Part shown: positions 7,181 through 64,000 of the stretch, piece after piece
Numbering within the stretch: position 1 is the first letter of the stretch
Layout: every line of letters begins with the position of its first letter
Origin: Tragulus kanchil
Taxonomy: Eukaryota > Chordata > Mammalia > Artiodactyla > Tragulidae
Direction of reading: 5' to 3'
Assembly (NCBI GenBank): GCA_022376925.1
Contig: JAIOJX010000005.1
Location: forward strand, 14,412,501 to 14,476,500
DNA length: 64,000 nucleotides
The notes under the pieces: model-generated
What the model was told of the DNA's origin: nothing
Database searches by the model: none
The model's input: the letters and a program-made list of their open reading frames with translations, nothing else
Translations under genes and position numbers: made by a program

Positions 7181-7676
7181 TCTATTTATAGCTTTTGGTG
7201 ATTACAGAAACCAAATCAAAACTTTCCCTTCTTCCTGGGAATGTCCCAGTCTTGGATAAGTACAGGCAGGTGTTTTCCCCACTCCTCTCGCCCCTCCCCC
7301 CCCTTCCTTTTCTCCATTTCACATCAGTAGAAGTTTTACAAAACTGATTTGGCTGCCAATGGTGAAACAGTACCAAATAAAATGAAATGAAAACCCCCAA
7401 AAGACAATCAGAAAATCCTAAGTAAATCCTCAGGTTTGGTCTTCTTACCACAAACAGCATAATTAACACAACCATGGTAGCTGGACACGGTGCACAGGCT
7501 CCCAGGATAACCAGCCTCAAGCCCTCGTGGAGAGCCTAACAAGCACTGCGGCCACAGATGGTTTCAATAAAGTATCACCCTTCCCTCACACCTGGGTTCA
7601 GAGCTGTTACCAGATCACTTACCCAAAATGCACCTCAGAGAACCTGCTTTAGGGATAATTAAAAGACTGCCTGAGG

Positions 7677-7880
7677 ACTTCCCAGGTGGTGCGGTGGTAA
7701 ACAATGAGCCTGCCCATGCAAGATGCGGGTTTGATCCCTGGGTCAGGAAGATCCCCTAGAGCAGGAAATGGCAGCCCACTCCAATATTCTTGCCTGGGAA
7801 GTCCCTTGGACAGAGAAGCCTGGGGGAGCTATATTCCATAGGATGGCAAAGAATCAAACATGACTGAGCAACTGAACACA
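7677..7880 (+). mobile_element. Bov-tA SINE (D1 copy A)
   Basis: Full-length Bov-tA. It has gaggacttcccaggtggtgc, a B-box-like ggtttgatccc, tcaggaagatcccctagagc and ggaaatggcagcccactcca, ending gactgagcaactgaacacac. It sits inside the ERV-like leader in the opposite orientation. Confidence 0.93.
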
Positions 7881-8759
7881 CACAAAGTATTTCCCATTTG
7901 TAAAGACAGAAATTCAAGACAAAACACAAATGGCATACACAAACGCTAGCGTCCAAAGAAACAAATGAACAGGTCCGCTGGTTCACAAACCAGGTGGAAG
8001 TCCCAGCAACCGTTTCCTCTTTCCAACAGCGTACTCCACTCAAATACAAAATAAACTGACTCACTCCAGAGAAAAGGCCTCAAATGAAGAGAAAATGCAA
8101 CCATTTCCTCTCTCCAATAAGGTACCCAAACAAATTAGCTTATTCTGGCGAAGAAGTCCCAAATGGAGAGGAAAAAACATTTCCAGTTGCACACACCAGT
8201 GCCACTTACCTGTCTGTACGGTTGTCTCGGGTCTAGTCGCCTCACAAATGTCCCTTCCTTGCTCCAGCTGACAGGCTCTAGGCAGTCAGTGCCGCTTTGA
8301 GGAACTCTGAAGGAAAAGCCCCACAAGTTTTCTCGGCCAGTCTTGGATAAGTACAGGCAGGTGTTTTCCCCACTCCTCTCGCCCCCTTCCTTTTCTCCAT
8401 TTCACATCAGTAGAAGTTTTACAAAACTGATTTGGCTGCCAATGGTGAAACAGTACCAAATAAAATGAAATGAAAACCCCCAAAAGACAATCAGAAAATC
8501 CTAAGTAAATCCTCAGGTTTGGTCTTCTTACCACAAACAGCATAATTAACACAACCATGGTAGCTGGACACGGTGCACAGGCTCCCAGGATAACCAGCCT
8601 CAAGCCCTCGTGGAGAGCCTAACAAGCACTGCGGCCACAGATGGTTTCAATAAAGTATCACCCTTCCCTCACACCTGGGTTCAGAGCTGTTACCAGATCA
8701 CTTACCCAAAATGCACCTCAGAGAACCTGCTTTAGGGATAATTAAAAGACTGCCTGAGG

Positions 8760-8963
8760 ACTTCCCAGGTGGTGCGGTGGTAAACAATGAGCCTGCCCAT
8801 GCAAGATGCGGGTTTGATCCCTGGGTCAGGAAGATCCCCTAGAGCAGGAAATGGCAGCCCACTCCAATATTCTTGCCTGGGAAGTCCCTTGGACAGAGAA
8901 GCCTGGGGGAGCTATATTCCATAGGATGGCAAAGAATCAAACATGACTGAGCAACTGAACACA
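8760..8963 (+). mobile_element. Bov-tA SINE (D1 copy B)
   Basis: Identical duplicate of the Bov-tA at 7677, displaced by 1083 bases. Both the insertion and its flanks are repeated, so this is not an independent retroposition. Confidence 0.93.
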
Positions 8964-9207
8964 CACAAAGTATTTCCCATTTGTAAAGACAGAAATTCAA
9001 GACAAAACACAAATGGCATACACAAACGCTAGCGTCCAAAGAAACAAATGAACAGGTCCGCTGGTTCACAAACCAGGTGGAAGTCCCAGCAACCGTTTCC
9101 TCTTTCCAACAGCGTACTCCACTCAAATACAAAATAAACTGACTCACTCCAGAGAAAAGGCCTCAAATGAAGAGAAAATGCAACCATTTCCTCTCTCCAA
9201 TAAGGTA

Positions 9208-11434
9208 CCCAAACAAATTAGCTTATTCTGGCGAAGAAGTCCCAAATGGAGAGGAAAAAACATTTCCAGTTGCACACACCAGTGCCACTTACCTGTCTGT
9301 ACGGTTGTCTCGGGTCTAGTCGCCTCACAAATGTCCCTTCCTTGCTCCAGCTGACAGGCTCTAGGCAGTCAGTGCCGCTTTGAGGAACTCTGAAGGAAAA
9401 GCCCCACAAGACAAGCAACCGGGCAGCTGCTAGGATCTCAGCTGAAAACTCCCCAACTGGGGCCGCGGGGCACCGGCCGCAAGGTTCTCGGCTGGCTGCG
9501 TGGAAATCAATTACCGAGTGTACACCTGCCTTGTACCGCTCATAGCGAGACAGGCCAACGAATCGAGAGACGAGTTGTTCGGGCAAGAGCGACTTTATGC
9601 AGAAGGCCCCCAGACAGAGAAGACAGTGAACTTGTATCCCAAAGAACCAATCTGACTGAGTTAGAATTCAGGCTTCTTTTACATGAAAAGGGAGGAAGTA
9701 AAGGGAAACATTTCCTCCCACTTTCCTCTGTCTAGTCAGTCTCAGGAGGGGACGAGGAAGTTTTTTCCTCCCACGGCAGACATTCAAAGAGGGCCTGGTC
9801 AGGATGTTTCCTGCAGGCTAAACAAAGGCTTTTCAGCTTTATGTTCATTACCTGGGAAGCAGGTTTCCAGAGATGGGCCGTATGCGTGGCGTACATTTAT
9901 AGGCAACATTCATTCAGTGATTAAAGACTGTAAAGCTTCTTCCCACTGACTGAAGGGATAAGGGCTGAAGATACCTTAACATTTCTGAGTTCCAGATTCA
10001 GCTCCTGCCTCTTCCCTCACTCGAAACCCACAGAAATATTTTCTTTGGGCTTATACACCCTGGGCTCATACTTACAATGGCAGAGTCAGCTCTTTGCTCA
10101 CAGAAAAACCTGTGTCCTTCTTTCCCGGTGTGCAGTGGGCAGTGGGCAGGAACATTGTTGGGCCCAGGAGCAGCCCTGTGGCTGAGCTCTTTGTAATGAA
10201 GTGTGAACTAGAACCTCTCATGGAATACTCTGCATGCTCTTTTCCCGTTAGTTGTTGGTCTCAAGGACTTGGCTTCTGGATGGAAAAGCCACGGTAACGA
10301 AGGTGCCTGGGCCTCTGAATCACCATGGGAGGAAACCCAAACAAATTAGCTTATTCGGAAATCCTTTCCAGTTGCACACAGTGCCACTTACCTGTCTGAC
10401 GTTGTCTCGGGTCTAGTCGCCTCACAAATGTCCCTTCCTTGCTCCAGCTGACAGGCTCTAGGCAGTCAGTGCCGCTTTGAGGAACTCTGAAGGAAAAGCC
10501 CCACAAGACAAGCAACCGGGCAGCTGCTAGGATCTCAGCTGAAAACTCCCCAACTGGGGCCGCGGGGCACCGGCCGCAAGGTTCTCGGCTGGCTGCGTGG
10601 AAATCAATTACCGAGTGTACACCTGCCTTGTACCGCTCATAGCGAGACAGGCCAACGAATCGAGAGACGAGTTGTTCGGGCAAGAGCGACTTTATGCAGA
10701 AGGCCCCCAGACAGAGAAGACAGTGAACTTGTATCCCAAAGAACCAATCTGACTGAGTTAGAATTCAGGCTTCTTTTACATGAAAAGGGAGGAAGTAAAG
10801 GGAAACATTTCCTCCCACTTTCCTCTGTCTAGTCAGTCTCAGGAGGGGACGAGGAAGTTTTTTCCTCCCACGGCAGACATTCAAAGAGGGCCTGGTCAGG
10901 ATGTTTCCTGCAGGCTAAACAAAGGCTTTTCAGCTTTATGTTCATTACCTGGGAAGCAGGTTTCCAGAGATGGGCCGTATGCGTGGCGTACATTTATAGG
11001 CAACATTCATTCAGTGATTAAAGACTGTAAAGCTTCTTCCCACTGACTGAAGGGATAAGGGCTGAAGATACCTTAACATTTCTGAGTTCCAGATTCAGCT
11101 CCTGCCTCTTCCCTCACTCGAAACCCACAGAAATATTTTCTTTGGGCTTATACACCCTGGGCTCATACTTACAATGGCAGAGTCAGCTCTTTGCTCACAG
11201 AAAAACCTGTGTCCTTCTTTCCCGGTGTGCAGTGGGCAGTGGGCAGGAACATTGTTGGGCCCAGGAGCAGCCCTGTGGCTGAGCTCTTTGTAATGAAGTG
11301 TGAACTAGAACCTCTCATGGAATACTCTGCATGCTCTTTTCCCGTTAGTTGTTGGTCTCCAAGGACTTGGCTTCTGGATGGAAAAGCCACGGTAACGAAG
11401 GTGCCTGGGCCTCTGAATCACCATGGGAGGAAAC
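9208..11434. repeat. Tandem 1.1-kb duplication D2
   Basis: Copy A is 9208-10335 and copy B is 10336-11434, with no spacer. Most of the copy is offset by 1097. The first 70 bases of copy B (10336-10405) lack many bases present in A, for example a whole gcgaagaagtcccaaatgg stretch and several single bases, while the rest is identical. The missing bases sit only at the junction, typical of a low-quality contig edge. Confidence 0.95.
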
Positions 11435-11510
11435 CTGTCCACTCATCAGGAAACCATCACTGGACTGTTAGATGACTCATAATTAACTCCAACAGTGGTA
11501 CCAGGGACAT
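9400..11510 (-). mobile_element. LTR-like block of an endogenous retrovirus, minus strand
   Basis: On the minus strand the block has the layout of a retroviral LTR. Its right part is U3-like, with TATA-like motifs (plus tttatagg near 9896 and its D2 duplicate). A cataaag signal lies just before the CpG-rich stretch at about 9450-9600, which resembles R/U5 plus the start of the leader. The left boundary runs into the leader; the right edge may be near 11505 (plus ccagggaca, giving TGTCC on minus). Duplication D2 falls inside, so the real block is about 1 kb. I could not identify a primer-binding site with confidence. No viral protein is encoded here. Confidence 0.5.
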
Positions 11511-13410: not shown

Positions 13411-13713
13411 ATTCAATGAACTATCCAAAGTCGTCTTCTCTAGATAACACAAAGTCTTCACTTGAGTGAGGGAGATGGTCGTTGGCAAACAAACCTAGAT
13501 CGTGGTGACAGTGTCTGGAGGCCAGCAGCTTCGGAGGGGGGTCTTAAGGTACCCCTGAGCTCAGGGGCTCTGAGCTCCTGTGTCCTCCCAGCCAGTATAA
13601 TAAATTAGAAACCAGTTATGAGCAATTTTATTAGTCAGGCTTCTGGAAGAAAAGAGATGCATGCTCAACCAGGATTTTGAGAAGCTTTACTGAAGGGACT
13701 ATTTACAGAGGTA

Positions 13714-13734
13714 GGTGTGTGTGTGTGTGTGTGT
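13714..13734 (+). repeat. (TG)n microsatellite
   Basis: About ten TG units, directly beside a Bov-tA on the minus strand. The duplicate is at 14819-14839. Confidence 0.9.
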
Positions 13735-13878
13735 ATTCAGTTGCTCAGTCGTGTCAGACTCTTTGAGGCCCTATGGACGGCAGCCCAACAGGCTCCTCTG
13801 TCCAGACATCAAACCCATGTCTCCTGAGTCTCCTGCGTTGGCAGGCATATTCTTTACCACTATGCCACCCAGGAAGTG
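13735..13878 (-). mobile_element. Bov-tA SINE, minus strand (D3 copy A)
   Basis: Plus-strand text attcagttgctcagtcgtg, agactctttgaggccctatg and ggctcctctgtccagacatc, ending accactatgccacccaggaa, is the reverse complement of Bov-tA. An internal deletion removes part of the middle. Confidence 0.88.
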
Positions 13879-13918
13879 CCTACAGAGATATGGGCGGGCC
13901 TAAAGGCACTAACACAGG

Positions 13919-14120
13919 ACTGCCCTACTAGCTCAGAGGGTAAAGAGTCTGCCTGCAATGCAGGAGATGAGAGTTCTATCCCTGGGTAGGAAGATCCCCT
14001 GGAGGAGGAAATGGCAGCCCACTCCAGTATTCTTGACTGGGAAATCCCATGGACAGAGGAGCCTGGTGGGCTACAAGTCCATTGGGTCTCAAAGAGTCAG
14101 ACATGACTTAGCAATTAAAC
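13919..14120 (+). mobile_element. Bov-tA SINE, plus strand (D3 copy A)
   Basis: It starts gactgccctactagctcaga and contains ggtaggaagatcccctggag, ttcttgactgggaaatccca and agtcagacatgacttagc. It faces the minus-strand Bov-tA only about 40 bases away, so the two form an inverted pair. Confidence 0.9.
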
Positions 14121-14839
14121 AAGAGCAAAGGTACCAAGAAGCAATGTTGAAGCACCCAGTCTGACAACATTAGGAAGCTGTTACCATCTCTAGACCTGAA
14201 GGGGTCTAGTAGTAGGAGAAAAAATTAGCCAAATAAACAGAACCAAAAGGATATGTGTGTGTGTATGCATTATAAGGAACTGCTTCATGTAGTTACGAAG
14301 GTTAAGCAACTCCATGATTTGCAGTCAGCAAGCTGGAATCCAGGAGAGCTGATCGATCCTAGATTGAATCTGAAGGCCTGAGGAACAAGAGAAGTGACAA
14401 TGTAAGTTCCAGTCTGAGTGTGAGTCCAAAGACAGATAGAGAGAAATCATTTTCATTTACTCAGACTTTCATTCTGGCCATCACCAGACTGGATGAGGTC
14501 CCACTGGGGAGAGCAATTCAATGAACTATCCAAAGTCGTCTTCTCTAGATAACACAAAGTCTTCACTTGAGTGAGGGAGATGGTCGTTGGCAAACAAACC
14601 TAGATCGTGGTGACAGTGTCTGGAGGCCAGCAGCTTCGGAGGGGGGTCTTAAGGTACCCCTGAGCTCAGGGGCTCTGAGCTCCTGTGTCCTCCCAGCCAG
14701 TATAATAAATTAGAAACCAGTTATGAGCAATTTTATTAGTCAGGCTTCTGGAAGAAAAGAGATGCATGCTCAACCAGGATTTTGAGAAGCTTTACTGAAG
14801 GGACTATTTACAGAGGTAGGTGTGTGTGTGTGTGTGTGT

Positions 14840-14983
14840 ATTCAGTTGCTCAGTCGTGTCAGACTCTTTGAGGCCCTATGGACGGCAGCCCAACAGGCTC
14901 CTCTGTCCAGACATCAAACCCATGTCTCCTGAGTCTCCTGCGTTGGCAGGCATATTCTTTACCACTATGCCACCCAGGAAGTG
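14840..14983 (-). mobile_element. Bov-tA SINE, minus strand (D3 copy B)
   Basis: Exact duplicate of the element at 13735, displaced by 1105. Confidence 0.88.
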
Positions 14984-15023
14984 CCTACAGAGATATGGGC
15001 GGGCCTAAAGGCACTAACACAGG

Positions 15024-15225
15024 ACTGCCCTACTAGCTCAGAGGGTAAAGAGTCTGCCTGCAATGCAGGAGATGAGAGTTCTATCCCTGGGTAGGAAGAT
15101 CCCCTGGAGGAGGAAATGGCAGCCCACTCCAGTATTCTTGACTGGGAAATCCCATGGACAGAGGAGCCTGGTGGGCTACAAGTCCATTGGGTCTCAAAGA
15201 GTCAGACATGACTTAGCAATTAAAC
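15024..15225 (+). mobile_element. Bov-tA SINE, plus strand (D3 copy B)
   Basis: Exact duplicate of the element at 13919, displaced by 1105. Confidence 0.9.
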
Positions 15226-16201
15226 AAGAGCAAAGGTACCAAGAAGCAATGTTGAAGCACCCAGTCTGACAACATTAGGAAGCTGTTACCATCTCTAGAC
15301 CTGAAGGGGTCTAGTAGTAGGAGAAAAAATTAGCCAAATAAACAGAACCAAAAGGATATGTGTGTGTGTATGCATTATAAGGAACTGCTTCATGTAGTTA
15401 CGAAGGTTAAGCAACTCCATGATTTGCAGTCAGCAAGCTGGAATCCAGGAGAGCTGATCGATCCTAGATTGAATCTGAAGGCCTGAGGAACAAGAGAAGT
15501 GACAATGTAAGTTCCAGTCTGAGTGTGAGTCCAAAGACAGATAGAGAGAAATCATTTTCATTTACTCAGACTTTCATTCTGGCCATCACCAGACTGGATG
15601 AGGTCCCACTGGGGAGAGCAATCTGTTTTACTCAACCTACTGATTACATGTGGGTCTCATCCAGACACATCCTTATACACACTCAGAAATAACGCTTAAA
15701 CACATATTTGGGCACCCCATCAACCCTGTCCAGTTGACACATGAAATTAACCATGGCAGAGGAAAAGGATGAACAGTGTTCCCAGAGCCTTGCATGAGCT
15801 GGGTGAGTCTGGAGAAAGGATCTGCGGTTGAGAGAGGTGTAGCTGCTGTCAGCTGCAGGCAGAGAAGAAGAGGCATGACTAAATACCCTATTCCTTCTCT
15901 CTGCAGCTCCCTCTTCCACCCGTGTCTTCAGCTGTCCCAGCCCAACCATAAGCCAGTGGACTATGGGACCTGTGTGATACAGTCAGTGGTGTAGGGAGGT
16001 CAGCCTCTTGGGGCTCAGAGAAGGCAGATGGATAGAAGAGGAGTACCGGAGGAGGGACAAAGAGACTACCCAGACGAGAAACTCCAGAGCTTTTCTGGAA
16101 TCTGGAAGTACCTAGTAAGAGAAATCATGGGGAAAAGACTGTCACAACCAGGGAGAGCTTAGAGTCATTTTAGATCTCAACATGAAACAATACGAGGCAG
16201 C

Positions 16202-17370: not shown

Positions 17371-17539
17371 ATGAAAAGCTGCTGTTTAGAAGCCAACAAT
17401 ACTTGGTGGGGGAAAGGACAAGCTCTTCAATAAATGCTGTTGGGGGAACTAGAGAAATGTTATGTAGAAGAATAAAATTAGATTTTTATTTTACATCATT
17501 CACAAAAATTAACTCAGAATGGATTAAAGACTTTGATAG

Positions 17540-18297
17540 TGTGATTTATTAATAAGAAATGTATATTTGGTCTTTGACCTGTTCCTGGTACCAAAATCAC
17601 TGGATTTCTTAAGTGATGGAAACCATCAAAGTGTCTCTTGTTACATTAATTAGGTGACTTTTCAAGGTAACCTAAGATGGGATTGGCCTCCCAAGGAACC
17701 AACCAAATTGGCTGGAAAGTTGGCAATAGCCAGAACTGAAACTTCGGTCCTACCCCCAGACTTCTAAAAGGGAGAGGGCTGGAGACTGATTTCAATCACT
17801 AATGGCCAATCATGCCTATGTAGTGGAGCCTTCTTAAAAGTCTGAAATGATAGGGTTTGGAGAGCTTCCACATGGAGGTGTTGGGACTATCAGACATTCT
17901 GAGATGGTATGGAAGCTCTGACCCTTCATGTACACTTTGCTCTTTGTATCTCTTCCATTTGGCTGTTCATGATGTATATCCTTCTATAATAAACCAGTAA
18001 TCTATAAGTAAAATGTTTCCCTGAGTTCTGAGAGTGACTCTAGCAAATTAATCAAACCCAATGAGGGTTTTGTTGAAGCCTCTTATGTACAGCCAGTTGG
18101 TCAGAAGCACAGGTGACAAGATGAACCTGCAGCTGGCATCTAAAACGGGAGACGAGCAGGATGGCAGGACTGAGCCCTTATCTTGTGAGATCTCATATCA
18201 TCTACAGGTAGACAGTATCAGCACTGAATTGAGTTGAACTGTAGGACATCTGGCTGGTGTCAGAATATTTTTGGTTGTGTGAGGGAAAACCACACAT
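17540..18297 (+). mobile_element. LTR-like element nested in L1 (D4 copy A)
   Basis: It interrupts the L1 between gattaaagactttgatag and tggaaagatttaaaatg. Text such as atggccaatcatgcctatgt, ggctgttcatgatgtatatc, a tataataaaccagtaatc polyadenylation-like motif, and ttccctgagttctgagagtg followed by ctctagcaaattaatc is a repeat I have seen as an LTR-style mammalian element. The family name is uncertain. The duplicate is 18632-19390. Confidence 0.55.
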
Positions 18298-18631
18298 ACT
18301 GGAAAGATTTAAAATGAGAACTGAAACTGTAAAACTTCTAAAAGAAGGTAGGACAGTACCAGTGTCCTCTTCTAAAACAGGAACTACCTCCTTGATGTTG
18401 GCCTTGGAAATGATTTTTTGGGGGATACGATACCAAAAGTACAAGAAGCAAAAGCAAAATTAATGAAAAGCTGCTGTTTAGAAGCCAACAATACTTGGTG
18501 GGGGAAAGGACAAGCTCTTCAATAAATGCTGTTGGGGGAACTAGAGAAATGTTATGTAGAAGAATAAAATTAGATTTTTATTTTACATCATTCACAAAAA
18601 TTAACTCAGAATGGATTAAAGACTTTGATAG

Positions 18632-19390
18632 TGTGATTTATTAATAAGAAATGTATATTTGGTCTTTGACCTGTTCCTGGTACCAAAATCACTGGATTTC
18701 TTAAGTGATGGAAACCATCAAAGTGTCTCTTGTTACATTAATTAGGTGACTTTTCAAGGTAACCTAAGATGGGATTGGCCTCCCAAGGAACCAACCAAAT
18801 TGGCTGGAAAGTTGGCAATAGCCAGAACTGAAACTTCGGTCCTACCCCCAGACTTCTAAAAGGGGAGAGGGGCTGGAGACTGATTTCAATCACTAATGGC
18901 CAATCATGCCTATGTAGTGGAGCCTTCTTAAAAGTCTGAAATGATAGGGTTTGGAGAGCTTCCACATGGAGGTGTTGGGACTATCAGACATTCTGAGATG
19001 GTATGGAAGCTCTGACCCTTCATGTACACTTTGCTCTTTGTATCTCTTCCATTTGGCTGTTCATGATGTATATCCTTCTATAATAAACCAGTAATCTATA
19101 AGTAAAATGTTTCCCTGAGTTCTGAGAGTGACTCTAGCAAATTAATCAAACCCAATGAGGGTTTTGTTGAAGCCTCTTATGTACAGCCAGTTGGTCAGAA
19201 GCACAGGTGACAAGATGAACCTGCAGCTGGCATCTAAAACGGGAGACGAGCAGGATGGCAGGACTGAGCCCTTATCTTGTGAGATCTCATATCATCTACA
19301 GGTAGACAGTATCAGCACTGAATTGAGTTGAACTGTAGGACATCTGGCTGGTGTCAGAATATTTTTGGTTGTGTGAGGGAAAACCACACA
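18632..19390 (+). mobile_element. LTR-like element nested in L1 (D4 copy B)
   Basis: Near-identical duplicate of 17540-18297. Independent insertion at the same L1 position twice is implausible, so this belongs to the 1.1-kb duplication. Confidence 0.55.
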
Positions 19391-19440
19391 TACTGGAAAG
19401 ATTTAAAATGAGAACTGAAACTGTAAAACTTCTAAAAGAA

Positions 19441-21629
19441 GGTAGGACAGTACCAGTGTCCTCTTCTAAAACAGGACACTGGGAAAAACCTCCTTGATGT
19501 TGGCCTTGGAAATGATTTTTTTGGGGGGGGATACGATACCAAAAGTACAAGAAGCAAAAGCAAAAATTAATAAACAGGACTACATCAAACTAATAAACTT
19601 TTGCACAGCGAAAGAAACAATCAACAAAATGAAATGGCAAAAATGGGAAAAGAATGGGAAGAAAATTCATAAATCATGTATCTGCTAAGGGGATACTATC
19701 CAAGTTATATAAAGAACTCATACAACTCAACAGCAAAAACAAACAAAAAACCAATATGATTTACACTTGGCAGAGGAACTGAACAGATATTTTTCTGGAG
19801 AAAGCATACAGAGGAGTGCCAGAATATACAGAGGTGCTCAACATCACTAAGATTCAGGGAAATGCAAATCAAAACCACACCACCACCTCACATCTATGAG
19901 AATGGCCATCACCTAAAACAGAAGAGGAAAGCGCTGAGGAGGATGTGCAGACATGTGCAGTTTCGGTGGGAATGTAAATTGGTACTACAGAACTAAGTTT
20001 CCTCAAAAAATTTAAAAAAGAGCTACCGTATGATTCAGCAATCTGACTTCTGGGTATATCCAAAGGAAATAAATAGTAGATATGGATAAAACACCTGGGA
20101 TCCCATGCTTACTGCAGCATTACATACAAAATGGAGTATTATTTAGTCATAAGAAGGAAGGAAATTCTGCTCTTTGAGACAAGGATGGGCATTTACACAA
20201 TGAAAAATAAGTCAGAGAAAGGCAAATACTGTATAATATAACTTGTATATGGGATTTAAGAGACAAACTCATAGAACCAGAGGGCAGAATGTTGGCTACA
20301 GGCTCTGGGGGAAGCAGGGAGATGTCAGAGCGTACAGACCTGTCGTTCTAAGGTGAATAATATCTGGAGCTCTTATGTACAGCTAGATGACTACCATTAA
20401 TAATGCTGTGTTATCATATATATGGAATCTAGTAGGATGGTGATGATGGCACATGCAGTGAAGTGACGGAAAGACAGACATGGACAGTGGACATATGGAC
20501 ATTGTGGGGAAGGAACAGTGGGTGAGAGGCGTAAAGGAAACCAAGGTAGGACAGTACCAGTCTTCTAAAACAGGACACTGGGAAACCTCCTTGATGTTGG
20601 CCTTGGAAATGATTTTGGGGATACGATACCAAAAGTACAAGAAGCAAAAGCAAAAATTAATAAACAGGACTACATCAAACTAATAAACTTTTGCACAGCG
20701 AAAGAAACAATCAACAAAATGAAATGGCAAAAATGGGAAAAGAATGGGAAGAAAATTCATAAATCATGTATCTGCTAAGGGGATACTATCCAAGTTATAT
20801 AAAGAACTCATACAACTCAACAGCAAAAACAAACAAAAAACCAATATGATTTACACTTGGCAGAGGAACTGAACAGATATTTTTCTGGAGAAAGCATACA
20901 GAGGAGTGCCAGAATATACAGAGGTGCTCAACATCACTAAGATTCAGGGAAATGCAAATCAAAACCACACCACCACCTCACATCTATGAGAATGGCCATC
21001 ACCTAAAACAGAAGAGGAAAGCGCTGAGGAGGATGTGCAGACATGTGCAGTTTCGGTGGGAATGTAAATTGGTACTACAGAACTAAGTTTCCTCAAAAAA
21101 TTTAAAAAAGAGCTACCGTATGATTCAGCAATCTGACTTCTGGGTATATCCAAAGGAAATAAATAGTAGATATGGATAAAACACCTGGGATCCCATGCTT
21201 ACTGCAGCATTACATACAAAATGGAGTATTATTTAGTCATAAGAAGGAAGGAAATTCTGCTCTTTGAGACAAGGATGGGCATTTACACAATGAAAAATAA
21301 GTCAGAGAAAGGCAAATACTGTATAATATAACTTGTATATGGGATTTAAGAGACAAACTCATAGAACCAGAGGGCAGAATGTTGGCTACAGGCTCTGGGG
21401 GAAGCAGGGAGATGTCAGAGCGTACAGACCTGTCGTTCTAAGGTGAATAATATCTGGAGCTCTTATGTACAGCTAGATGACTACCATTAATAATGCTGTG
21501 TTATCATATATATGGAATCTAGTAGGATGGTGATGATGGCACATGCAGTGAAGTGACGGAAAGACAGACATGGACAGTGGACATATGGACATTGTGGGGA
21601 AGAAACAGTGGGTGAGAGGAGTAAAGGAA
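19441..21629. repeat. Tandem 1.09-kb duplication D5
   Basis: Copy A is 19441-20539 and copy B is 20545-21629. Most of it is offset by exactly 1090. The first 100 bases of B are degraded: agtaccagtcttctaaaac lacks gtcctc, gggaaacctcc lacks two A, and gattttggggatac lacks several T and G. A single change (gaaggaacag in A, gaagaaacag in B) sits near A's end. The continuation gtagcatgaaggcc follows B only. Confidence 0.95.
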
Positions 21630-23010: not shown

Positions 23011-23174
23011 ATGGAAAATAGAAGAGAAGATAATTAGAGACCCAAATATCAATAGATTAAAACAGTTCTAGTGAGAGAGAAGAATATAAGAGTGAAAGGG
23101 ATATCATCAAATAAAACATTTTATGAAGAGAAAAACATGTACTCACAGATTTAAATGGGTCCACTGAGGGCTAA

Positions 23175-23393
23175 GGGGCTTCCCTGATGGCTCAGTCATT
23201 GGAACCTGCCTGCAGCACAGGATTCACAGGTTTAATCGCTGGTTCAGGGAAGATCCGCTAGAGAATGAAACAGCAACCTGGTCCAGTATTCCTGCCCGGG
23301 AAATCTCATGGACAGAGGAGCCTGGCTGGCTGCAGTCTGCAGGATCACAAAAGAGTCATACACAACTTAGCAACTAAACAACAATAACATCAT
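23175..23393 (+). mobile_element. Bov-tA SINE (D6 copy A)
   Basis: It starts ggggcttccctgatggctca, with ggtttaatcgctggttcagg, gggaagatccgctagagaat and gacagaggagcctggctggc, ending acttagcaactaaacaacaa. It is full length. Confidence 0.93.
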
Positions 23394-23554
23394 GTCAAGG
23401 GGCATTAAAGTTCTCAAGAACCGGCTCTCCACATACTCTTTCTCATGAAGAAACAGAAGGATGTGTTCCGCCTAAGCAAAAGAATAAACCATTAAAGAGA
23501 AAGACAGTAAATCAAGGCAACAAGAGATCAGGATCCCAGGGACTTAATATCAAG

Positions 23555-24480: not shown

Positions 24481-24641
24481 GTCAAGGGGCATTAAAGTTC
24501 TCAAGAACCGGCTCTCCACATACTCTTTCTCATGAAGAAACAGAAGGATGTGTTCCGCCTAAGCAAAAGAATAAACCATTAAAGAGAAAGACAGTAAATC
24601 AAGGCAACAAGAGATCAGGATCCCAGGGACTTAATATCAAG

Positions 24642-38911: not shown

Positions 38912-38929
38912 AAGATACAGGATTAAAAC

Positions 38930-50497: not shown

Positions 50498-52755
50498 GGG
50501 AGGGAAAAAAGTATCCTCTCATGTTGTTCATGAAAAGTATTAAACAATGAGTACGTTTAAGTGACTGTAACTGACACTGGTGGTAACATGAAGATGAGTG
50601 ACAAGTAACAGACAACCTCTGACCTCAAGTATCAGTAATACAGATGCCTGTGGCTAACTGTAATGGAGAGTATAAAGTGAGTGCAACGAATTAGTAGGAA
50701 AATTGAGAGGAGGGGCAGCTGCTCTCCGTGGGAAGATGTGGGGAAGTCTTGATGGAGAAGTTCACTTCCTGGTACACAGTAAACATTCTGCAGAATGAAG
50801 AAGGTTGCATATGAATTAGACCACTGAGATAGGTAGGAAATTAGTCATACTGACTTGAGAAAGTAAGAGATCCAGGCAGAGGCCATGGTGTGAACAAAGG
50901 TGTGGTATTTTGCACATATATGAGAAAGAGTTAATGTCCAGCCAGGTCTTCCTCCTCTCCTGTTGTTGTGGCTATCTGACCTCTAGCCCCAGCTTACTAA
51001 AGATCTCTTGGCCACTGGGTGCCCACAAGCACTTGTGTATGTGAATCTGATATTCAGTTGCCAATCAAGTCTTGACTGCCTCGTTTCTGAGCCCCACCCA
51101 CATACTAACCTCTAGATTCCTGTCCCATTTCCTGGATCTAAACCCGTATTTAATCATCAGCCTGCATGCTACAGACACTCTCATACATAAGCACTGCCTC
51201 ATCTCTTGTTCTTTCAGCAATTTAAAGATGATCCACATTCTTCTGACCTCTGTGTTCTTCAAATCACTGTGCCCCTGTGCGCAATGTGCCATTTTTTCCC
51301 TAACAAATTTCAAGTTTTTAATCTTTGATTTTCAGTAGTTTGATTGTAATGTGTCAAGTGCATTTGATTTTGAGTTTAACGCACTCGGAGTTCACTGAGC
51401 TGCTTTAATCTCTAAGTTTATGTCTCTCATCAAGTTTGGAAGTTTTCAGCACATATTTTCTGTCTCTTTCTAGAATTCCATGACATATATGTTGGAGCTT
51501 TTGATACGGCTCTATAGGTCCCTTCTGAAACTCTCTTTTTCTCTCCATTCTTCCACTTGCATATATATCTTTTTGATCTGACTTCAGGTTCACTGACTCC
51601 TTTTCTCCTGTCATTTCTATTCTGCGGGAGGGAAAAAAGTATCCTCTCATGTTGTTCATGAAAAGTATTAAACAATGAGTACGTTTAAGTGACTGTAACT
51701 GACACTGGTGGTAACATGAAGATGAGTGACAAGTAACAGACAACCTCTGACCTCAAGTATCAGTAATACAGATGCCTGTGGCTAACTGTAATGGAGAGTA
51801 TAAAGTGAGTGCAACGAATTAGTAGGAAAATTGAGAGGAGGGGCAGCTGCTCTCCGTGGGAAGATGTGGGGAAGTCTTGATGGAGAAGTTCACTTCCTGG
51901 TACACAGTAAACATTCTGCAGAATGAAGAAGGTTGCATATGAATTAGACCACTGAGATAGGTAGGAAATTAGTCATACTGACTTGAGAAAGTAAGAGATC
52001 CAGGCAGAGGCCATGGTGTGAACAAAGGTGTGGTATTTTGCACATATATGAGAAAGAGTTAATGTCCAGCCAGGTCTTCCTCCTCTCCTGTTGTTGTGGC
52101 TATCTGACCTCTAGCCCCAGCTTACTAAAGATCTCTTGGCCACTGGGTGCCCACAAGCACTTGTGTATGTGAATCTGATATTCAGTTGCCAATCAAGTCT
52201 TGACTGCCTCGTTTCTGAGCCCCACCCACATACTAACCTCTAGATTCCTGTCCCATTTCCTGGATCTAAACCCGTATTTAATCATCAGCCTGCATGCTAC
52301 AGACACTCTCATACATAAGCACTGCCTCATCTCTTGTTCTTTCAGCAATTTAAAGATGATCCACATTCTTCTGACCTCTGTGTTCTTCAAATCACTGTGC
52401 CCCTGTGCGCAATGTGCCATTTTTTCCCTAACAAATTTCAAGTTTTTAATCTTTGATTTTCAGTAGTTTGATTGTAATGTGTCAAGTGCATTTGATTTTG
52501 AGTTTAACGCACTCGGAGTTCACTGAGCTGCTTTAATCTCTAAGTTTATGTCTCTCATCAAGTTTGGAAGTTTTCAGCACATATTTTCTGTCTCTTTCTA
52601 GAATTCCATGACATATATGTTGGAGCTTTTGATACGGCTCTATAGGTCCCTTCTGAAACTCTCTTTTTTTCTGTCCATTCTTCCACTTGCATATATATTT
52701 TTTTGATCTGTCTTCAGGTTCACTGACTCCTTTTCTCCTGTCATTTCTATTCTGC
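50498..52755. repeat. Tandem 1.13-kb duplication D15
   Basis: Copy A is 50498-51625 and copy B is 51626-52755, constant offset 1128 with no spacer. Differences are confined to the last 90 bases of A: ctctttttctctccattc against ctctttttttctgtccattc, tatatctttttg against tatatttttttg, and gatctgactt against gatctgtctt. Such end-loaded errors point to poor consensus at a contig edge. Confidence 0.96.
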
Positions 52756-54879: not shown

Positions 54880-55956
54880 TCTGTCCTCTGAGATGGATGA
54901 AGGGAGGTGAGAATGAGTGATGATCCCCAGAATGGTGGGGGTGACGGGAAAGGAAGCTGAGTCGGTGGATACCTGAGATCCCCTGCCGGGAAGGAGCGGG
55001 GTTGGGCCAACAAAGCCTTTAGCTAGTCAGACCCGTGTGAGGGGGCTTGAACTTCGTGGCTGTGCAAGCTCCTTTTCATCTCAGGCTGTAAACCACCACA
55101 GCTCCCCTAGGAGCTAAAGGCTGGGGCAGACCTTGTCAGGGCACAACTCAGTCTAAACTTGGGCAACATGTGCACTGCATATTCTCTCCATTTCTAGAGT
55201 TGAAAATGGCTTTGCGGAAAAAAAAATCATACAATTATAATATGTGGACCACAGAAGAAAGAAAAGTTAGCAATGTTCTGGGAACCCTGCCCAGCTCTTT
55301 TATGATTCTGAGTAGTAAAGTTACAACATGCCACATACAGACTTGTTTGGCAGAGCATGTGCTGAAGTGTGTGTGCTTAGTCAAGGCCTCTCACTCATCT
55401 ATTTCATTTCTTGCCAGCATTCCCCATTATTAATAAAGAGCGACTGAGCCTTGTGGCAGGTTTGAGTTAGTTCTGATGTAATTGTCCATTATCTCTCTTG
55501 TAATTGCTTTCAGGCAGTTCGGATGCCTCCTTTCTATTTCCCAAGATCTGATTCTCTGCACTCTGGTTTTTGGTGAACCAAAATGCCAAGTCATTTCAGA
55601 TCAAGTTTCTTCTGCGTTTCTCCTGACTACAGAAGTGCGGACCCCTTCCACATGCAGAGAAAATCACTTAGAGATTTAACATTGATTTCATGTCTATTAA
55701 TCATGGAACAGTATCAACATTTTCCTCCAGGCAAAGGTACAAATGACACATTTTTTCCATGTGTGGTTGGTACGTGTGTATGTGCTCTAAGATTGTTTTT
55801 ATTAAAACAAAGCAAGATCTGCTTCCTGTGAGACTCAGTGTTTTTGCTATCAACTGATGGGGCTTTGTGTTTTCTATGTTACAGTCTGCCAAGTGGGTAG
55901 GAATTGGCAGGGTGGGTCCTGACTAGACTCACCTCAGCGTGTCACAGTGGTTTCAG
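54880..55956. other. Unique intergenic DNA
   Basis: No recognised repeat or gene. Small plus frames at 55170-55831 lack domain signals. Confidence 0.4.
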
Positions 55957-56243
55957 ATGAACCCAAGGACAAGGGAAGAAGAATGCTTTAGAGGATGGAA
56001 AATGACAGGGGACTGCGCTATCAACCGCAAACTGCCAAGATGATTAGTTTTAAATTACTAATATGCTGAGTGATGATCTCCCCTTGACTTTGATAGGGAT
56101 TTAATGTGCTTTAATCAACCAGGTAATCTTGATTTTTTTCAAGTGAATTCCGATGTCAAACTAAATAGGACACAAGTCTCATGAATGAGTCTTTGTCTCA
56201 GTTAGCTAGAAGCCAGCGGGTGGGTGTACGAGCTCTGCCGCCA

Positions 56244-56412
56244 CGGCAGAGTCCCTTCTGTCCTGTCCGACTCTGTGTGACCCCATGGACGGTAGCCCCC
56301 CAGGCGCCTCTGTCCATGGGATTCTCCAGGCTAGAATCCTGGAGTGGGTTGCCATGCCCTCCTCCAGGGGATCTTCCCAAACCCAGAGGTCGAACCTGCA
56401 TCTCTCATGTGT
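56244..56412 (-). mobile_element. Bov-tA SINE, minus strand (D16 copy A)
   Basis: Plus text ctgtcctgtccgactctgtg, atggacggtagccccccagg, gagtgggttgccatgccctc and gatcttcccaaacccagagg is the reverse complement of Bov-tA. The tRNA-like 5' end is truncated on the right. Confidence 0.9.
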
Positions 56413-56487
56413 CCTAGAAAGAAACTAAGCTGTAGAAGCCTAGATATTCAGAGCTAAAAAAATCTTTTGAAATCATCTTTATTTTAT

Positions 56488-56572
56488 AACCAGAAATGGA
56501 AACATAAGAAAAGTTATGCAACTGGCTAAAGGTCACACCGCTAATTACCGATAGAGTCAACACTCAGACACA
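56488..56572 (+). mobile_element. MIR SINE core (D16 copy A)
   Basis: The run aaatggaaacataagaaaag, ttatgcaactggctaaaggt and cacaccgctaattaccgata follows the MIR core (gaaactgaggc, taacttgcccaaggtcacac, agctagtaag). It is ancient and diverged. The duplicate is at 57602-57686. Confidence 0.7.
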
Positions 56573-57357
56573 TTTTGTATTTACTCCCTACTGCTTTCCA
56601 TTGTACCCTGAAGATTCGTGCTTGTCTTGCAGCGGTCGCTTCGTCTCTTTCCGTCGAGAAGTCGAGTAGTGGAGCGTGGGAGGAAGGGGAAGAGTTTACG
56701 GAAAGAAAGTCCTCAGAAGAGGACTCGGTTTCTCAGAAAGAGGTGGCTCAAATATGCTGATACAAATTTATTATCAGATTTTCACTCACTGAGGAGAAAG
56801 CCTGTGATTCTCACAATAAGAGGAGGTTACGGACTTAGAGACTTCTAAGACCCTCCAACATTTAGCACTGATGTCAGACCAGCGGCTTCCTTGAGCTCAA
56901 ACCACTAACCGCTACTGGTGCCTTCTGTCTGTCTTCTCCGCACCCCCTGCCCCCTCACGAGCCAACACCCACAGCTCATCATCTGATTATAACGGGTATG
57001 TTGCAAACAGAATTAAGATTTTCTGGGTGCCCTGAGATTCTGTTAGCATAAGACTTTTGTTCAAAACTTGATGGAACCCAAGGACAAGGGAAGAAGAATG
57101 CTTTAGAGGATGGAAAATGACAGGGACTGCGCTATCAACCGCAAACTGCCAAGATGATTAGTTTTAAATTACTAATATGCTGAGTGATGATCTCCCCTTG
57201 ACTTTGATAGGGATTTAATGTGCTTTAATCAACCAGGTAATCTTGATTTTTTTCAAGTGAATTCCGATGTCAAACTAAATAGGACACAAGTCTCATGAAT
57301 GAGTCTTTGTCTCAGTTAGCTAGAAGCCAGCGGGTGGGTGTACGAGCTCTGCCGCCA

Positions 57358-57526
57358 CGGCAGAGTCCCTTCTGTCCTGTCCGACTCTGTGTGACCCCAT
57401 GGACGGTAGCCCCCCAGGCGCCTCTGTCCATGGGATTCTCCAGGCTAGAATCCTGGAGTGGGTTGCCATGCCCTCCTCCAGGGGATCTTCCCAAACCCAG
57501 AGGTCGAACCTGCATCTCTCATGTGT
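57358..57526 (-). mobile_element. Bov-tA SINE, minus strand (D16 copy B)
   Basis: Duplicate of 56244-56412 at offset 1114. Confidence 0.9.
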
Positions 57527-57601
57527 CCTAGAAAGAAACTAAGCTGTAGAAGCCTAGATATTCAGAGCTAAAAAAATCTTTTGAAATCATCTTTATTTTA
57601 T

Positions 57602-57686
57602 AACCAGAAATGGAAACATAAGAAAAGTTATGCAACTGGCTAAAGGTCACACCGCTAATTACCGATAGAGTCAACACTCAGACACA
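57602..57686 (+). mobile_element. MIR SINE core (D16 copy B)
   Basis: Duplicate of 56488-56572 at offset 1114. Confidence 0.7.
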
Positions 57687-58172
57687 TTTTGTATTTACTC
57701 CCTACTGCTTTCCATTGTACCCTGAAGATTCGTGCTTGTCTTGCAGCGGTCGCTTCGTCTCTTTCCGTCGAGAAGTCGAGTAGTGGAGCGTGGGAGGAAG
57801 GGGAAGAGTTTGGAAAGAAAGTCCTCAGAAGAGGACTCGGTTTCTCAGAAAGAGGTGGCTCAAATATGCTGATACAAATTTATTATCAGATTTTCACTCA
57901 CTGAGGAGAAAGCCTGTGATTCTCACAATAAGAGGAGGTTACGGACTTAGAGACTTCTAAGACCCTCCAACATTTAGCACTGATGTCAGACCAGCGGCTT
58001 CCTTGAGCTCAAACCACTAACCGCTACTGGTGCCTTCTGTCTGTCTTCTCCGCACCCCCTGCCCCCTCACGAGCCAACACCCACAGCTCATCATCTGATT
58101 ATAACGGGTATGTTGCAAACAGAATTAAGATTTTCTGGGTGCCCTGAGATTCTGTTAGCATAAGACTTTTGC

Positions 58173-59183
58173 CTTGAAAAGTCTCCAGAGGAATGCTTCA
58201 GGAAAAATGCTGGTGACTTCCAAGCAACTTAGAAACTGCAGATTTTGCTTGCATTTTCAATGACCATGCTCTCTTCTATGTACACACTCATTCTCACGCA
58301 CACGGGCCAGTCTGAAGAAGATAAAACCAGGTAAGAATAGTTTATAAGGTGTTATTTAGGAAGTAGCCTTGGTCAGTGTGTGAAACCAGGGCAGGGAGTC
58401 AAACAGTTCCCAAATCAAAGGTAGGGAACACACATGGTCCAGATGTCCTTAGAAATTCAGCCTCAGGAACCAGCACCACGGACTTGAGCTAGCCTGTCCC
58501 TAGACACCCATAGGCAGGCTGCTGGAAGGAGGCAAAGAGCCTGATTCGGGCTGCAGGTGCTCAGAGCATTCATGATGCTTGAGCGCTATGCCTCACTGGT
58601 CCCCCAATCCTCTTCTTTCTCTTTATTGCAAGAATCAGACTTAAGCCACCTGGGCAGTGATTCAGAGAAAGAAGGTAGTTCAGCTATGCACCTGAGACCC
58701 AAGGTTCATTCATATAAAGGCTGTAAGCTTAGACCTTGATCTCAGACAGAGATGTTCTTCCTCTCATAAACAAACTCTCTCTTAAACTTGTTAAACAAAG
58801 TTGACATATTAACCTGTGCGAAGAACAGGAGGTTTAAAATGAGAAGTTCCAAGATCCAGATCCAATGGGAACAAAACCATAACTGGCGAGAGAACTACAG
58901 GAAGGATGTTTTTAACCTCTTTATATCTATGGGTCCAGGCCTCCAACATAATCTCTACCACAAAATTTTTTTATCTGGCCATTTCCAGACAAAACAATTC
59001 TATGTTTACAGCCCTGTCAAGGTCACACAATGCAATCATTGTAACTTCTCTGCCTGGACCTGAACACCGCTTCTATGTGGCACCACTTGCATCGTCTCCC
59101 CGCTCAAGGAATGTTCCATGGGCCAGTCAGTGGAAGCTTGTAAGAGATACCCATCTCAGAGCTTGCCCCAGACTTACTAAATC
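58173..59183. other. Unique intergenic DNA
   Basis: No recognised element. The long plus frame 58906-59421 starts here in unique DNA and then runs through the SINE at 59196; its C-terminal third is SINE translation. Confidence 0.45.
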
Positions 59184-59830: not shown

Positions 59831-60024
59831 TCAGAACTTTCACATGGATAAAAACAAACTAAAAAATCTGTTTGTTGTTTGGTACATACAGATAAAGCGC
59901 TTATGTGAGTCTGTTTGCTACACTTCACATATTTGGATATGTATATACATACACTGCATTTTTGTACAGAAATACATGCTCTTAGCAAGGCACTGAACAA
60001 GACTAGTTCTGCATCAAATTCTTG

Positions 60025-62187
60025 TATCACCGAGTAACTGGTCTAGAGCATCCCACTCACAAGACCGTGCCAGGCACCAGTCACACAGGATGAACAAAGC
60101 AGATGTGGTGTCTGTCCTCCCGGGATTTGCAGTCCAGTAAGAAGCTCTCATGAGAAGCTCTAGTCCCTAGAGGCCAGAGACCAAGTCTCTTACACCTCTT
60201 TGCCTTCCCCAGGGCCTTGAACTAAAACAATACAGTGAATGTTCAGTGAGCTTTGCTCCAATGCAAATCACAGCGGACTGCCTGAAAATTACCTGAATAA
60301 TATTTTGCAATTTTTCAAGCTGTTTGGACAAAACCCATCAGGAAGTGGAGAAAAAATGTAGTTTACCTTTTAATTTATTCCATTTCTCCTCCTATTATCA
60401 AACTTGAAATAGTTTATCAGGTTTTGTTTGTAACATATAACTTCCTAAATGCAGTAGAACCATGTTTCTCATCACTCATAAGTAATATTTGGTTAAATAT
60501 TACCTAAGCTGTTTCTCCATGACAGGGGGAAAAAAAGACTTCAGCAGAAAATAAAGCAATATGTTTGGTTGGAACTTGTTCTACTTTTGTTTTTTCCATA
60601 TTGGTTTCCACCTTTGTTTCAAAATGTTTGTGTTTGAGGGGAGATTTCCAGACCACAGCCTTTGGACTGAATGACAATGACTCAGTTCCCTGCCCTGTCT
60701 TATCTTTAACACTCTCCTTGCAAATTAAACAATAGAAAGATGGAAAGATATTTTGGCTCCATCAGTACAGAATGATTTGAAAACACCAGCCTGAGGGGAG
60801 AAAGTCACTGGAAATCAACGCTTAGGGAAATTATCACAGAGTTGGAAGAAAACTTGGATGAAGTCTGACCATGTGGGGAAGTGGGGGGCAGGGGCGGTGA
60901 GTGGGGACAGCACTTTGTAGAGGGGGAAAAGGAGGTCCAGAAGGAAGAAAGGTCTTGCCTAAGGTTCATCATATTTTAGGGAAACGAAAGGAAATTCTTT
61001 TAGACAGGGTTTTTGTAGAAGGTTCCCTAGTGAAAGCAATATATGGATATTCACTTTTATAACCATGTATGTATGCAAAACAAACTGGGAAGTAGGTGAT
61101 ATTTTTTATCACCGAGTAACTGGTCTAGAGCATCCCACTCACAAGCCCGTGCCAGGCACCAGTCACACAGGATGAACAAAGCAGATGTGGTGTCTGTCCT
61201 CCCGGGATTTGCAGTCCAGTAAGAAGCTCTCATGAGAAGCTCTAGTCCCTAGAGGCCAGAGACCAAGTCTCTTACACCTCTTTGCCTTCCCCAGGGCCTT
61301 GAACTAAAACAATACAGTGAATGTTCAGTGAGCTTTGCTCCAATGCAAATCACAGCGGACTGCCTGAAAATTACCTGAATAATATTTTGCAATTTTTCAA
61401 GCTGTTTGGACAAAACCCATCAGGAAGTGGAGAAAAAATGTAGTTTACCTTTTAATTTATTCCATTTCTCCTCCTATTATCAAACTTGAAATAGTTTATC
61501 AGGTTTTGTTTGTAACATATAACTTCCTAAATGCAGTAGAACCATGTTTCTCATCACTCATAAGTAATATTTGGTTAAATATTACCTAAGCTGTTTCTCC
61601 ATGACAGGGGGAAAAAAAGACTTCAGCAGAAAATAAAGCAATATGTTTGGTTGGAACTTGTTCTACTTTTGTTTTTTCCATATTGGTTTCCACCTTTGTT
61701 TCAAAATGTTTGTGTTTGAGGGGAGATTTCCAGACCACAGCCTTTGGACTGAATGACAATGACTCAGTTCCCTGCCCTGTCTTATCTTTAACACTCTCCT
61801 TGCAAATTAAACAATAGAAAGATGGAAAGATATTTTGGCTCCATCAGTACAGAATGATTTGAAAACACCAGCCTGAGGGGAGAAAGTCACTGGAAATCAA
61901 CGCTTAGGGAAATTATCACAGAGTTGGAAGAAAACTTGGATGAAGTCTGACCATGTGGGGAAGTGGGGGGCAGGGGCGGTGAGTGGGGACAGCACTTTGT
62001 AGAGGGGGAAAAGGAGGTCCAGAAGGAAGAAAGGTCTTGCCTAAGGTTCATCATATTTTAGGGAAACGAAAGGAAATTCTTTTAGACAGGGTTTTTGTAG
62101 AAGGTTCCCTAGTGAAAGCAATATATGGATATTCACTTTTATAACCATGTATGTATGCAAAACAAACTGGGAAGTAGGTGATATTTG
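60025..62187. repeat. Tandem 1.08-kb duplication D17
   Basis: Copy A is 60025-61105 and copy B is 61107-62187, constant offset 1082 with one change visible near the start (acaagaccgtg in A, acaagcccgtg in B). A ends aggtgatatttttt, where B reads aggtgatatttgtttcc and continues. No spacer. Confidence 0.96.
60270..60780. other. Unique AT-rich intergenic DNA
   Basis: Nothing recognised. Repeated at 61352-61862 by D17. Confidence 0.4.
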
Positions 62188-62199
62188 TTTCCAAGAGTC

Positions 62200-62640
62200 C
62201 AAACACCTTTCTTCTTTCATTACTTATTTTTATGTTACTCTGTTGACTTTTTTCCAACTTCCCTTGCTGATTTTTTTGGTTTGTCTACTTGTTTTATCAA
62301 TTACTGAGAGATATGTTGACGTCTCCAACCATGCCTGTGGATGTGTCTATTGTTCCTTTCAGTTCTGCCAGGTTTTGCTTCATGGGTTGTGAAGGCTGCT
62401 GTAAGGTGCATTCACATTCAGGACTACTAAGTCTTCTCCGTGACTTGATAGTTCTATCATGATGTAAAGTTCCATTTTATCCTTAATGGTTTTCTTTTCT
62501 CCAAATCTGCTCTGTCTGCTTATTAATACAGTGACACCGTTTTCTTTTGATGAGAGTGTGCATTACGTATTCATTCTCATCATTTACTTTTAACCCACCT
62601 TTATCACTGTACTCAAAGAGAGTCTCTGGTAGACAGAATA
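62200..62640 (-). mobile_element. L1 ORF2 5' part, minus strand (D18 copy A)
   Basis: Plus text gtctacttgttttatcaatt, actgagagatatgttgacgt, tgtctattgttcctttcagt and ctctggtagacagaatatag is the reverse complement of L1 ORF2. Frames are broken. The duplicate is 63284-63724. Confidence 0.8.
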
Positions 62641-62669
62641 TAGATGGGTCATGTTTTTGTTTTGTTTTT

Positions 62670-62934
62670 CAACTTTGACCTCTTTTACTCATTTTTTATT
62701 TATTTATTTATTTTCATCCATCTTTATTCTTTGGCCTCTGTGGGCCTCCCATGGCAGTGGCCTCTCTCATTGCAGAGCATCAGCTCCAGGCACATGAGCT
62801 CCAGAGTGCTGGCTCGTAGTTGGACATACCGGTCCAGCCGCTCTGTGGCACGTGAGATCTTCCCGGGTCAGGGATTGGACTGGTGCCCCCTGCACTGCAA
62901 GGCAGACTCTTTACCCATTTGGGCCCCAGGGAGA
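62670..62934 (-). mobile_element. CHR-like SINE, minus strand, (AAAT)n subtype (D18 copy A)
   Basis: Plus text gacctcttttactcattttt, tatttatttattttcatcca, tgtgggcctcccatggcagt and gactggtgccccctgcactg is the reverse complement of the 2905 body. The 5' end is altered (tttgggccccagggagacc for the usual accaccagggaagcc), and it abuts the D18 junction. Confidence 0.88.
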
Positions 62935-63283
62935 CCATGTTTTTGAAAACACCAGCCTGGGGGGAAAAAGTCACGGGAAATCAACGCTTAGGGAAATTAT
63001 CACAGAGTTGGAAGAAAACTTGGATGAAGTCTGACCATGTGGGGAAGGGGGGGGCAGGGGCGGGGAGGGGGGACAGCACTTTGTAGAGGGGGAAAAGGAG
63101 GTCCAGAAGGAAGAAAGGTCTTGCCTAAGGTTCATCATATTTTAGGGAAACGAAAGGAAATTCTTTTAGACAGGGTTTTTGTAGAAGGTTCCCTAGTGAA
63201 AGCAATATATGGATATTCACTTTTATAACCATGTATGTATGCAAAACAAACTGGGAAGTAGGTGATATTTGTTTCCAAGAGTC

Positions 63284-63724
63284 CAAACACCTTTCTTCTT
63301 TCATTACTTATTTTTATGTTACTCTGTTGATTTTTTTCCAACTTCCCTTGCTGATTTTTTTGGTTTGTCTACTTGTTTTATCAATTACTGAGAGATATGT
63401 TGACGTCTCCAACCATGCCTGTGGATGTGTCTATTGTTCCTTTCAGTTCTGCCAGGTTTTGCTTCATGGGTTGTGAAGGCTGCTGTAAGGTGCATTCACA
63501 TTCAGGACTACTAAGTCTTCTCCGTGACTTGATAGTTCTATCATGATGTAAAGTTCCATTTTATCCTTAATGGTTTTCTTTTCTCCAAATCTGCTCTGTC
63601 TGCTTATTAATACAGTGACACCGTTTTCTTTTGATGAGAGTGTGCATTACGTATTCATTCTCATCATTTACTTTTAACCCACCTTTATCACTGTACTCAA
63701 AGAGAGTCTCTGGTAGACAGAATA
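63284..63724 (-). mobile_element. L1 ORF2 5' part, minus strand (D18 copy B)
   Basis: Duplicate of 62200-62640 at offset 1084. Confidence 0.8.
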
Positions 63725-63753
63725 TAGATGGGTCATGTTTTTGTTTTGTTTTT

Positions 63754-64000
63754 CAACTTTGACCTCTTTTACTCATTTTTTATTTATTTATTTATTTTCA
63801 TCCATCTTTATTCTTTGGCCTCTGTGGGCCTCCCATGGCAGTGGCCTCTCTCATTGCAGAGCATCAGCTCCAGGCACATGAGCTCCAGAGTGCTGGCTCG
63901 TAGTTGGACATACCGGTCCAGCCGCTCTGTGGCACGTGAGATCTTCCCGGGTCAGGGATTGGACTGGTGCCCCCTGCACTGCAAGGCAGACTCTTTACCC
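63754..64000 (-). mobile_element. CHR-like SINE, minus strand, truncated by window end (D18 copy B)
   Basis: Duplicate of 62670-62934 at offset 1084; the window stops at ctttaccc, inside the SINE's tRNA-like start. Confidence 0.88.

Follow-up and report, generated by a model that had tools for sequence, protein, structure and literature searches.

Several kinds of false duplication have been described in genome assemblies, and the 1.1-kb tandem pairs reported here resemble three of them. In the portion of the VGP paper available to us (PMC8081667), homotype duplications appear as "overlapping sequences at contig boundaries", and our pairs are like them in that one locus seems to be written twice at a join with no haplotype signal; the VGP unit often has the length of a corrected read, and a gap stands between the copies after scaffolding. 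The duplicated overlapping contigs (DOCs) of Kelley and Salzberg (2010; PMC2864568) are similar in that neighbours share end sequence that needs merging. In the available sections of that paper, DOCs are ascribed to haplotype divergence and sought on separate contigs, and duplications within a contig are, in the authors' view, rarely false. The false gene gains from duplication errors treated in the available text of a third report (PMC9516828) are also comparable, as false copies of exons and genes there mimic the expansion of a family.

The window analysed here is the whole stretch of 64,000 nucleotides, which corresponds to positions 14412501-14476500 of contig C6 in an assembly of 3,167,203,957 bases in 32 contigs. 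The first-pass annotation had claimed 18 near-identical tandem pairs in it, each restarting after 1082-1168 bases, with none in 1-7245. Self-comparison of the window found exactly 18 head-to-tail pairs, all of them in 7246-64000, and no pair in 1-7245. Local alignment (n = 18) placed the offsets at 1083-1163 bases, in agreement with the earlier figure, and the identity at 97.1-100%, with three of the 18 pairs identical over their whole aligned length. The offsets add up to about 19.9 kb of surplus sequence, 31% of the window, as had been estimated. A distance of 0-12 bases between the copies had also been given, and it holds roughly for 15 of the 18 pairs, where the spacing is -11 to +9 bases, whereas it fails for the other three, with 18, 25 and 66 bases. 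The pairs, as located by self-comparison and local alignment, are listed below with the first and the second copy of each.

Pair 1, 7246-9410, no strand: copies 7246-8327 and 8337-9410.
Pair 2, 9207-11435, no strand: copies 9207-10337 and 10335-11435; overlaps pair 1, the common stretch being present three times.
Pair 3, 13411-15622, no strand: copies 13411-14517 and 14516-15622; identical, with a SINE motif copied along.
Pair 4, 17371-19574, no strand: copies 17371-18468 and 18463-19574.
Pair 5, 19439-21629, no strand: copies 19439-20539 and 20543-21629; overlaps pair 4.
Pair 6, 23012-25182, no strand: copies 23012-24095 and 24099-25182; identical.
Pair 7, 26222-28398, no strand: copies 26222-27307 and 27311-28398.
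Pair 8, 28017-30261, no strand: copies 28017-29138 and 29128-30261; overlaps pair 7.
Pair 9, 33133-35305, no strand: copies 33133-34222 and 34219-35305.
Pair 10, 35225-37477, no strand: copies 35225-36345 and 36364-37477; overlaps pair 9.
Pair 11, 37170-39506, no strand: copies 37170-38338 and 38333-39506; overlaps pair 10, with a tRNA-like call copied along.
Pair 12, 39955-42153, no strand: copies 39955-41053 and 41055-42153; identical.
Pair 13, 43899-46116, no strand: copies 43899-45009 and 45007-46116; SINE motif copied along.
Pair 14, 47018-49176, no strand: copies 47018-48064 and 48131-49176; 66 unmatched bases between the copies.
Pair 15, 50498-52755, no strand: copies 50498-51625 and 51626-52755.
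Pair 16, 55956-58180, no strand: copies 55956-57066 and 57070-58180.
Pair 17, 60018-62190, no strand: copies 60018-61107 and 61101-62190.
Pair 18, 61858-64000, no strand: copies 61858-62916 and 62942-64000; overlaps pair 17 and runs to the window end.

By their coordinates, successive units overlap six times within the window, and each overlapped stretch is present in three copies, for example 8124-8327, 9207-9410 and the shorter 10335-10507. Almost no 24-base words are common to different units. The pair-free 1-7245 is part of the longest step between units in our sample, 8428 bases, and pairs are already present in the 10 kb directly upstream of the window. With at most 2 mismatches allowed, the SINE motif occurs 7 times in the window, compared to 0.11 expected, at 5 places when each doubled one is counted a single time. 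Its copying in two pairs (3 and 13) bears out the earlier statement that SINEs are hit. The motif follows the sequence of Bov-tA elements, which fits a ruminant. ARAGORN called a selenocysteine tRNA twice, at 37812-37885 and 38980-39053, the second call falling within the artefactual repeat of the first. With Rfam's gathering scores there was no match at either position, and both calls are probably derived from repeats.

To determine whether such pairs are confined to the window, we examined further sequence of the assembly. Like pairs were found in all of 20 further 10-kb stretches on 13 contigs, C6 included. Of two further 5-kb stretches, the one on C10 contained a single pair and the one on C7 (stretch L021) contained none; C7, C8 and C32 have pairs among their Hsp70 matches, so that pairs occur on all 17 contigs, out of 32, that were examined by sequence or by Hsp70 matches. 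In addition, a repeat search found six same-strand pairs outside the window, 1074-1145 bases apart, among the 43 matches listed (40 of 5320 candidates scored). The pair finder accepted lags of 300-8000 bases with at least 150 shared 16-base words; lags of 1000-1300 defined the pair class, and doubled lags of 2050-2450 were set aside. In 274 kb, made up of 21 stretches, 77 pairs were found at 1063-1229 bases (median 1107), with at least one pair in 20 of the 21. These pairs are not chance matches, since all 77 of the class 1000-1300 fall within this narrow range. The remaining output of the finder in the 274 kb, outside both lag classes, consisted of three rows from two loci, at 717, 1756 and 2883 bases. 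These results support the conclusion that the duplication concerns the assembly as a whole, beyond the window, which refines the first-pass annotation.

The surplus in the 274 kb amounts to 29.9% (25.2-32.7% by bootstrap over stretches). This interval is rough: the window and its two flanking stretches (L006 and L007) were counted as one block, so 84 of the 274 kb belong to a single place, and round numbers were picked by hand for the other positions, mostly on contigs from the initial repeat search. The stretch L023 was excluded from the surplus estimate because it had been chosen for its Hsp70 hits, and the 717- and 1756-base units were excluded from the 77 pairs; an earlier, looser estimate that included these two units gave 31.6% with 78 pairs. 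Extrapolated from the 274 kb, removal of the surplus would reduce the assembly from 3.167 Gb to about 2.22 Gb (2.13-2.37 Gb). Ruminant assemblies usually have about 2.6-2.7 Gb. As 2.22 Gb lies below this, our sample may give too high a surplus, or repeats may be missing from the assembly. Of the contigs, at least 16 are longer than 60 Mb (the sizes of C8 and C32 are lower bounds), and at most about 120 Mb is left for the 15 others besides C10, which suggests that the contig set corresponds to about 16 chromosomes. A karyotype of 2n=32 occurs in chevrotains and some antelopes.

One reading of the pairs is that they are true tandem duplications, formed by a mechanism that favours units of about 1.1 kb. 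The copies in the window are contiguous, lie in one orientation and have no gap letters between them, as such a mechanism would leave them. Nevertheless, one unit size on 17 contigs, on unrelated sequence, is not expected from true duplication. A natural-looking repeat in our sample also differs from the pairs: at 3882-5558 of stretch L001, a tandem repeat with a period of 717 bases has about 2.3 copies, 95.2% identity and 42 substitutions, and is probably a real local repeat. The distribution of differences between the copies, which are gathered at the junction ends rather than spread throughout, and the Hsp70 genes, whose conserved exons and one intronless member would on this reading be doubled and partly broken, also speak against it, and we consider true duplication vanishingly unlikely.

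The differences were located in 67 aligned pairs; pairs near stretch ends or incomplete were left aside, and one interrupted pair with 698 bases between its matched parts was kept. The first 5% of the alignment contained 27.5 events/kb and the last 5% contained 21.7, and the 14 middle bins of 20 contained 0.3-5.4. Taken together, the outer 30% of columns had 248 events in 22,265 columns, compared to 109 in 51,956 for the inner 70%. The two ends of the alignment correspond to the two sides of the junction: in its first columns lies the 5' end of the second copy, and in its last columns the 3' end of the first. This gathering of differences at the junction ends, rather than over the unit, argues against old duplications.

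The same profile bears on heterotype false duplication, in which the two haplotypes of a heterozygous stretch are both retained next to each other, and which was the chief origin of false duplication in the assemblies examined in the available text of PMC9516828. Haplotype retention predicts variable length and substitutions throughout the unit, whereas the unit here is constant and the differences are mostly terminal. The inner 70% holds only 73 substitutions, with 36 indel events, in its 51,956 columns, and 8 of the 67 pairs are identical. We therefore regard haplotype retention as extremely improbable. In the inner 70% of the 67 pairs the copies look like one locus without haplotype-specific variants, and the concentration of differences in the outermost 5% points to lowered consensus quality at what would be piece boundaries, as in homotype duplication.

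Stretches present in three copies allowed a vote on which copy is at fault. In 18 of the 23 triples (the other five were left out), 50 events were counted; the odd copy was the third in 32, the first in 9 and the middle one in 9, and two triples yielded 21 of the 50 events. In the half adjoining the junction lay 29 of the 32 third-copy events and 6 of the 9 first-copy events. As the middle copy is odd as often as the first, the vote speaks mainly for a faulty head of the later piece. An earlier count (first 106, middle 10, third 57) was inflated because it included pairs truncated at stretch ends, and is not used.

As a referee we looked for conserved domains in 10 of the 41 open frames listed in the window; none of these 10 gave a Pfam match at E 0.001, and the Hsp70 family elsewhere in the genome was therefore taken. 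The search found at least 76 genome matches (73 of 142 candidates scored), 48 of which lie in same-strand pairs whose members, 0.95-1.3 kb apart, encode the same part of the protein. These form 27 pairs, 1064-1211 bases apart, on 11 contigs; 10 other Hsp70 pairs within 6 kb were listed, at 609-2924 bases. An Hsp70 gene cluster with several doubled units lies on the window's own contig at C6:29548573-29579379. In an intronless Hsp70 gene on C2 (stretch L023), the N-terminal end is present in three copies and the C-terminal end in two. One C-terminal copy follows heat shock 70 kDa protein 1A (7kw7_C) to the last residue, 641, and the other, at its end touching the junction, departs from Hsp70 shortly before the C-terminus, by a frame change as far as the letters show. 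Here it is the protein, and not the twin copy, that tells which junction end is faulty.

The first-pass annotation had read the pairs as unmerged overlaps of neighbouring contigs or graph edges. This reading is supported by the fixed size on unrelated DNA, the spread through the genome, the differences at junction ends and the doubled conserved exons. Judged from the letters, the 1.1-kb blocks very probably arose by false duplication during assembly and not in the organism. Our confidence rests on size, spread, end profile and the Hsp70 genes; the weaker three-copy vote leaves it unchanged. The three alternatives, namely true duplication in tandem, retention of haplotypes and the filling of gaps, were rejected on the grounds given for each.

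The observed size, spacing, spread through the genome sample, error profile and doubled exons are best explained as follows. The assembler would lay the genome out as consecutive consensus pieces, each of which would span a whole fixed-length graph node, about 1.1 kb in finished sequence, common to it and its neighbour. In many cases these two pieces would be joined end to end with the node unmerged, so that it would be written twice, as the tail of one piece and then as the head of the next; where nodes overlap, their common part would be written three times. We infer that the unit is a graph node, because a fixed unit on unrelated sequence argues for a node of fixed length and not for read overlaps, which vary in length. 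We also analysed the steps from one complete unit to the next. Only 1 of 48 was below 600 bases, compared to about 13 expected for an exponential distribution with the same mean, and the start of this lone step, of 248 bases, is incomplete. The counted steps omit units cut by stretch ends or incomplete, as well as a 348-base step to the 1756-base unit, set aside for the size of that unit. The constant unit, together with the smallest counted spacing of about 0.66 kb, points to shared fixed-length nodes over variable contig overlaps.

A gap filler or patcher that inserted long-read pieces with untrimmed anchors of about 1 kb would likewise produce joins with a unit of fixed size and ends of low quality. 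Under this reading, duplicates should come in twos for every gap filled, whereas the observed joins follow every 0.7-8 kb or so and form chains of overlapping units. It also predicts one copy that is worse throughout, whereas the inner 70% differs little (the three-copy vote bears on the third copy only). On these grounds gap filling is very unlikely.

As for the software behind the doubled nodes, we lean slightly towards a wtdbg/wtdbg2-type assembler, in which graph points consist of read segments of 1024 bases. In the available text of the respective papers, wtdbg2 takes 1024-bp points from reads and links them into a graph (PMC7506008) and bins reads by 256 bp (PMC9902641). All 77 units lie somewhat above 1024 bases (1063-1229), and one further unit has 1756; a slight excess over 1024 would be expected if bases are missing from raw reads or if the pieces reach slightly beyond the node. 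The overlap of neighbouring wtdbg nodes is presumably limited by default to 256 read bases. Overlaps between neighbouring units run as high as 438 bases, above this value, and a 256-like period in the unit steps, sought at 230-310 bases, was not found (jitter control, p 0.67). The unit of about 1756 bases, at 6382-9873 of stretch L004, has its head inside the second copy of the preceding pair, 348 bases after the preceding unit; no other near-identical unit in the sample lies far from 1.1 kb in size, and this one possibly represents two overlapping nodes doubled together. The 438-base overlaps, the lack of a 256-like period and the 1756-base unit count against the node as the unit and against naming wtdbg. 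The available portions of the literature on false duplication and on assemblers, wtdbg2's own paper aside, contain no account of doubled wtdbg2 nodes.

If the pairs are an artefact, nothing described here is a property of the animal, and the result matters as a warning about data quality. Should the sample be representative, nearly one third of the assembly would be superfluous and exons and small genes would be present twice; its genome size, and any tally of repeats, gene families or segmental duplications based on it, would be wrong. Coding frames can break at the junction ends. The fault is visible without reads in a histogram of tandem self-match distances (a lag plot). It is a fair possibility, though somewhat less likely than not, that a fault specific to an assembler or version doubles shared nodes assembly-wide, adding about 0.8-1.0 Gb, and that other assemblies from the same software step carry the same hidden signature of constant 1.1-kb tandem pairs with junction errors.

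Compared with the known kinds, the pairs apparently belong with the homotype false duplications at piece boundaries. From the homotype duplications in the VGP text available to us (PMC8081667) they differ in a unit of about 1.1 kb throughout, in the lack of gap letters in the window and in their recurrence every few kb. From DOCs, as presented in the available sections of PMC2864568, they differ in lying inside continuous sequence with no haplotype signal. In the earlier assemblies covered by the available text of PMC9516828, false duplications made up 4-16% of the sequence and were mostly heterotype, compared to about 30% of our sample here, apparently homotype. Thus, fixed size, lack of gap letters, density and extent set the present duplication apart from the known kinds.
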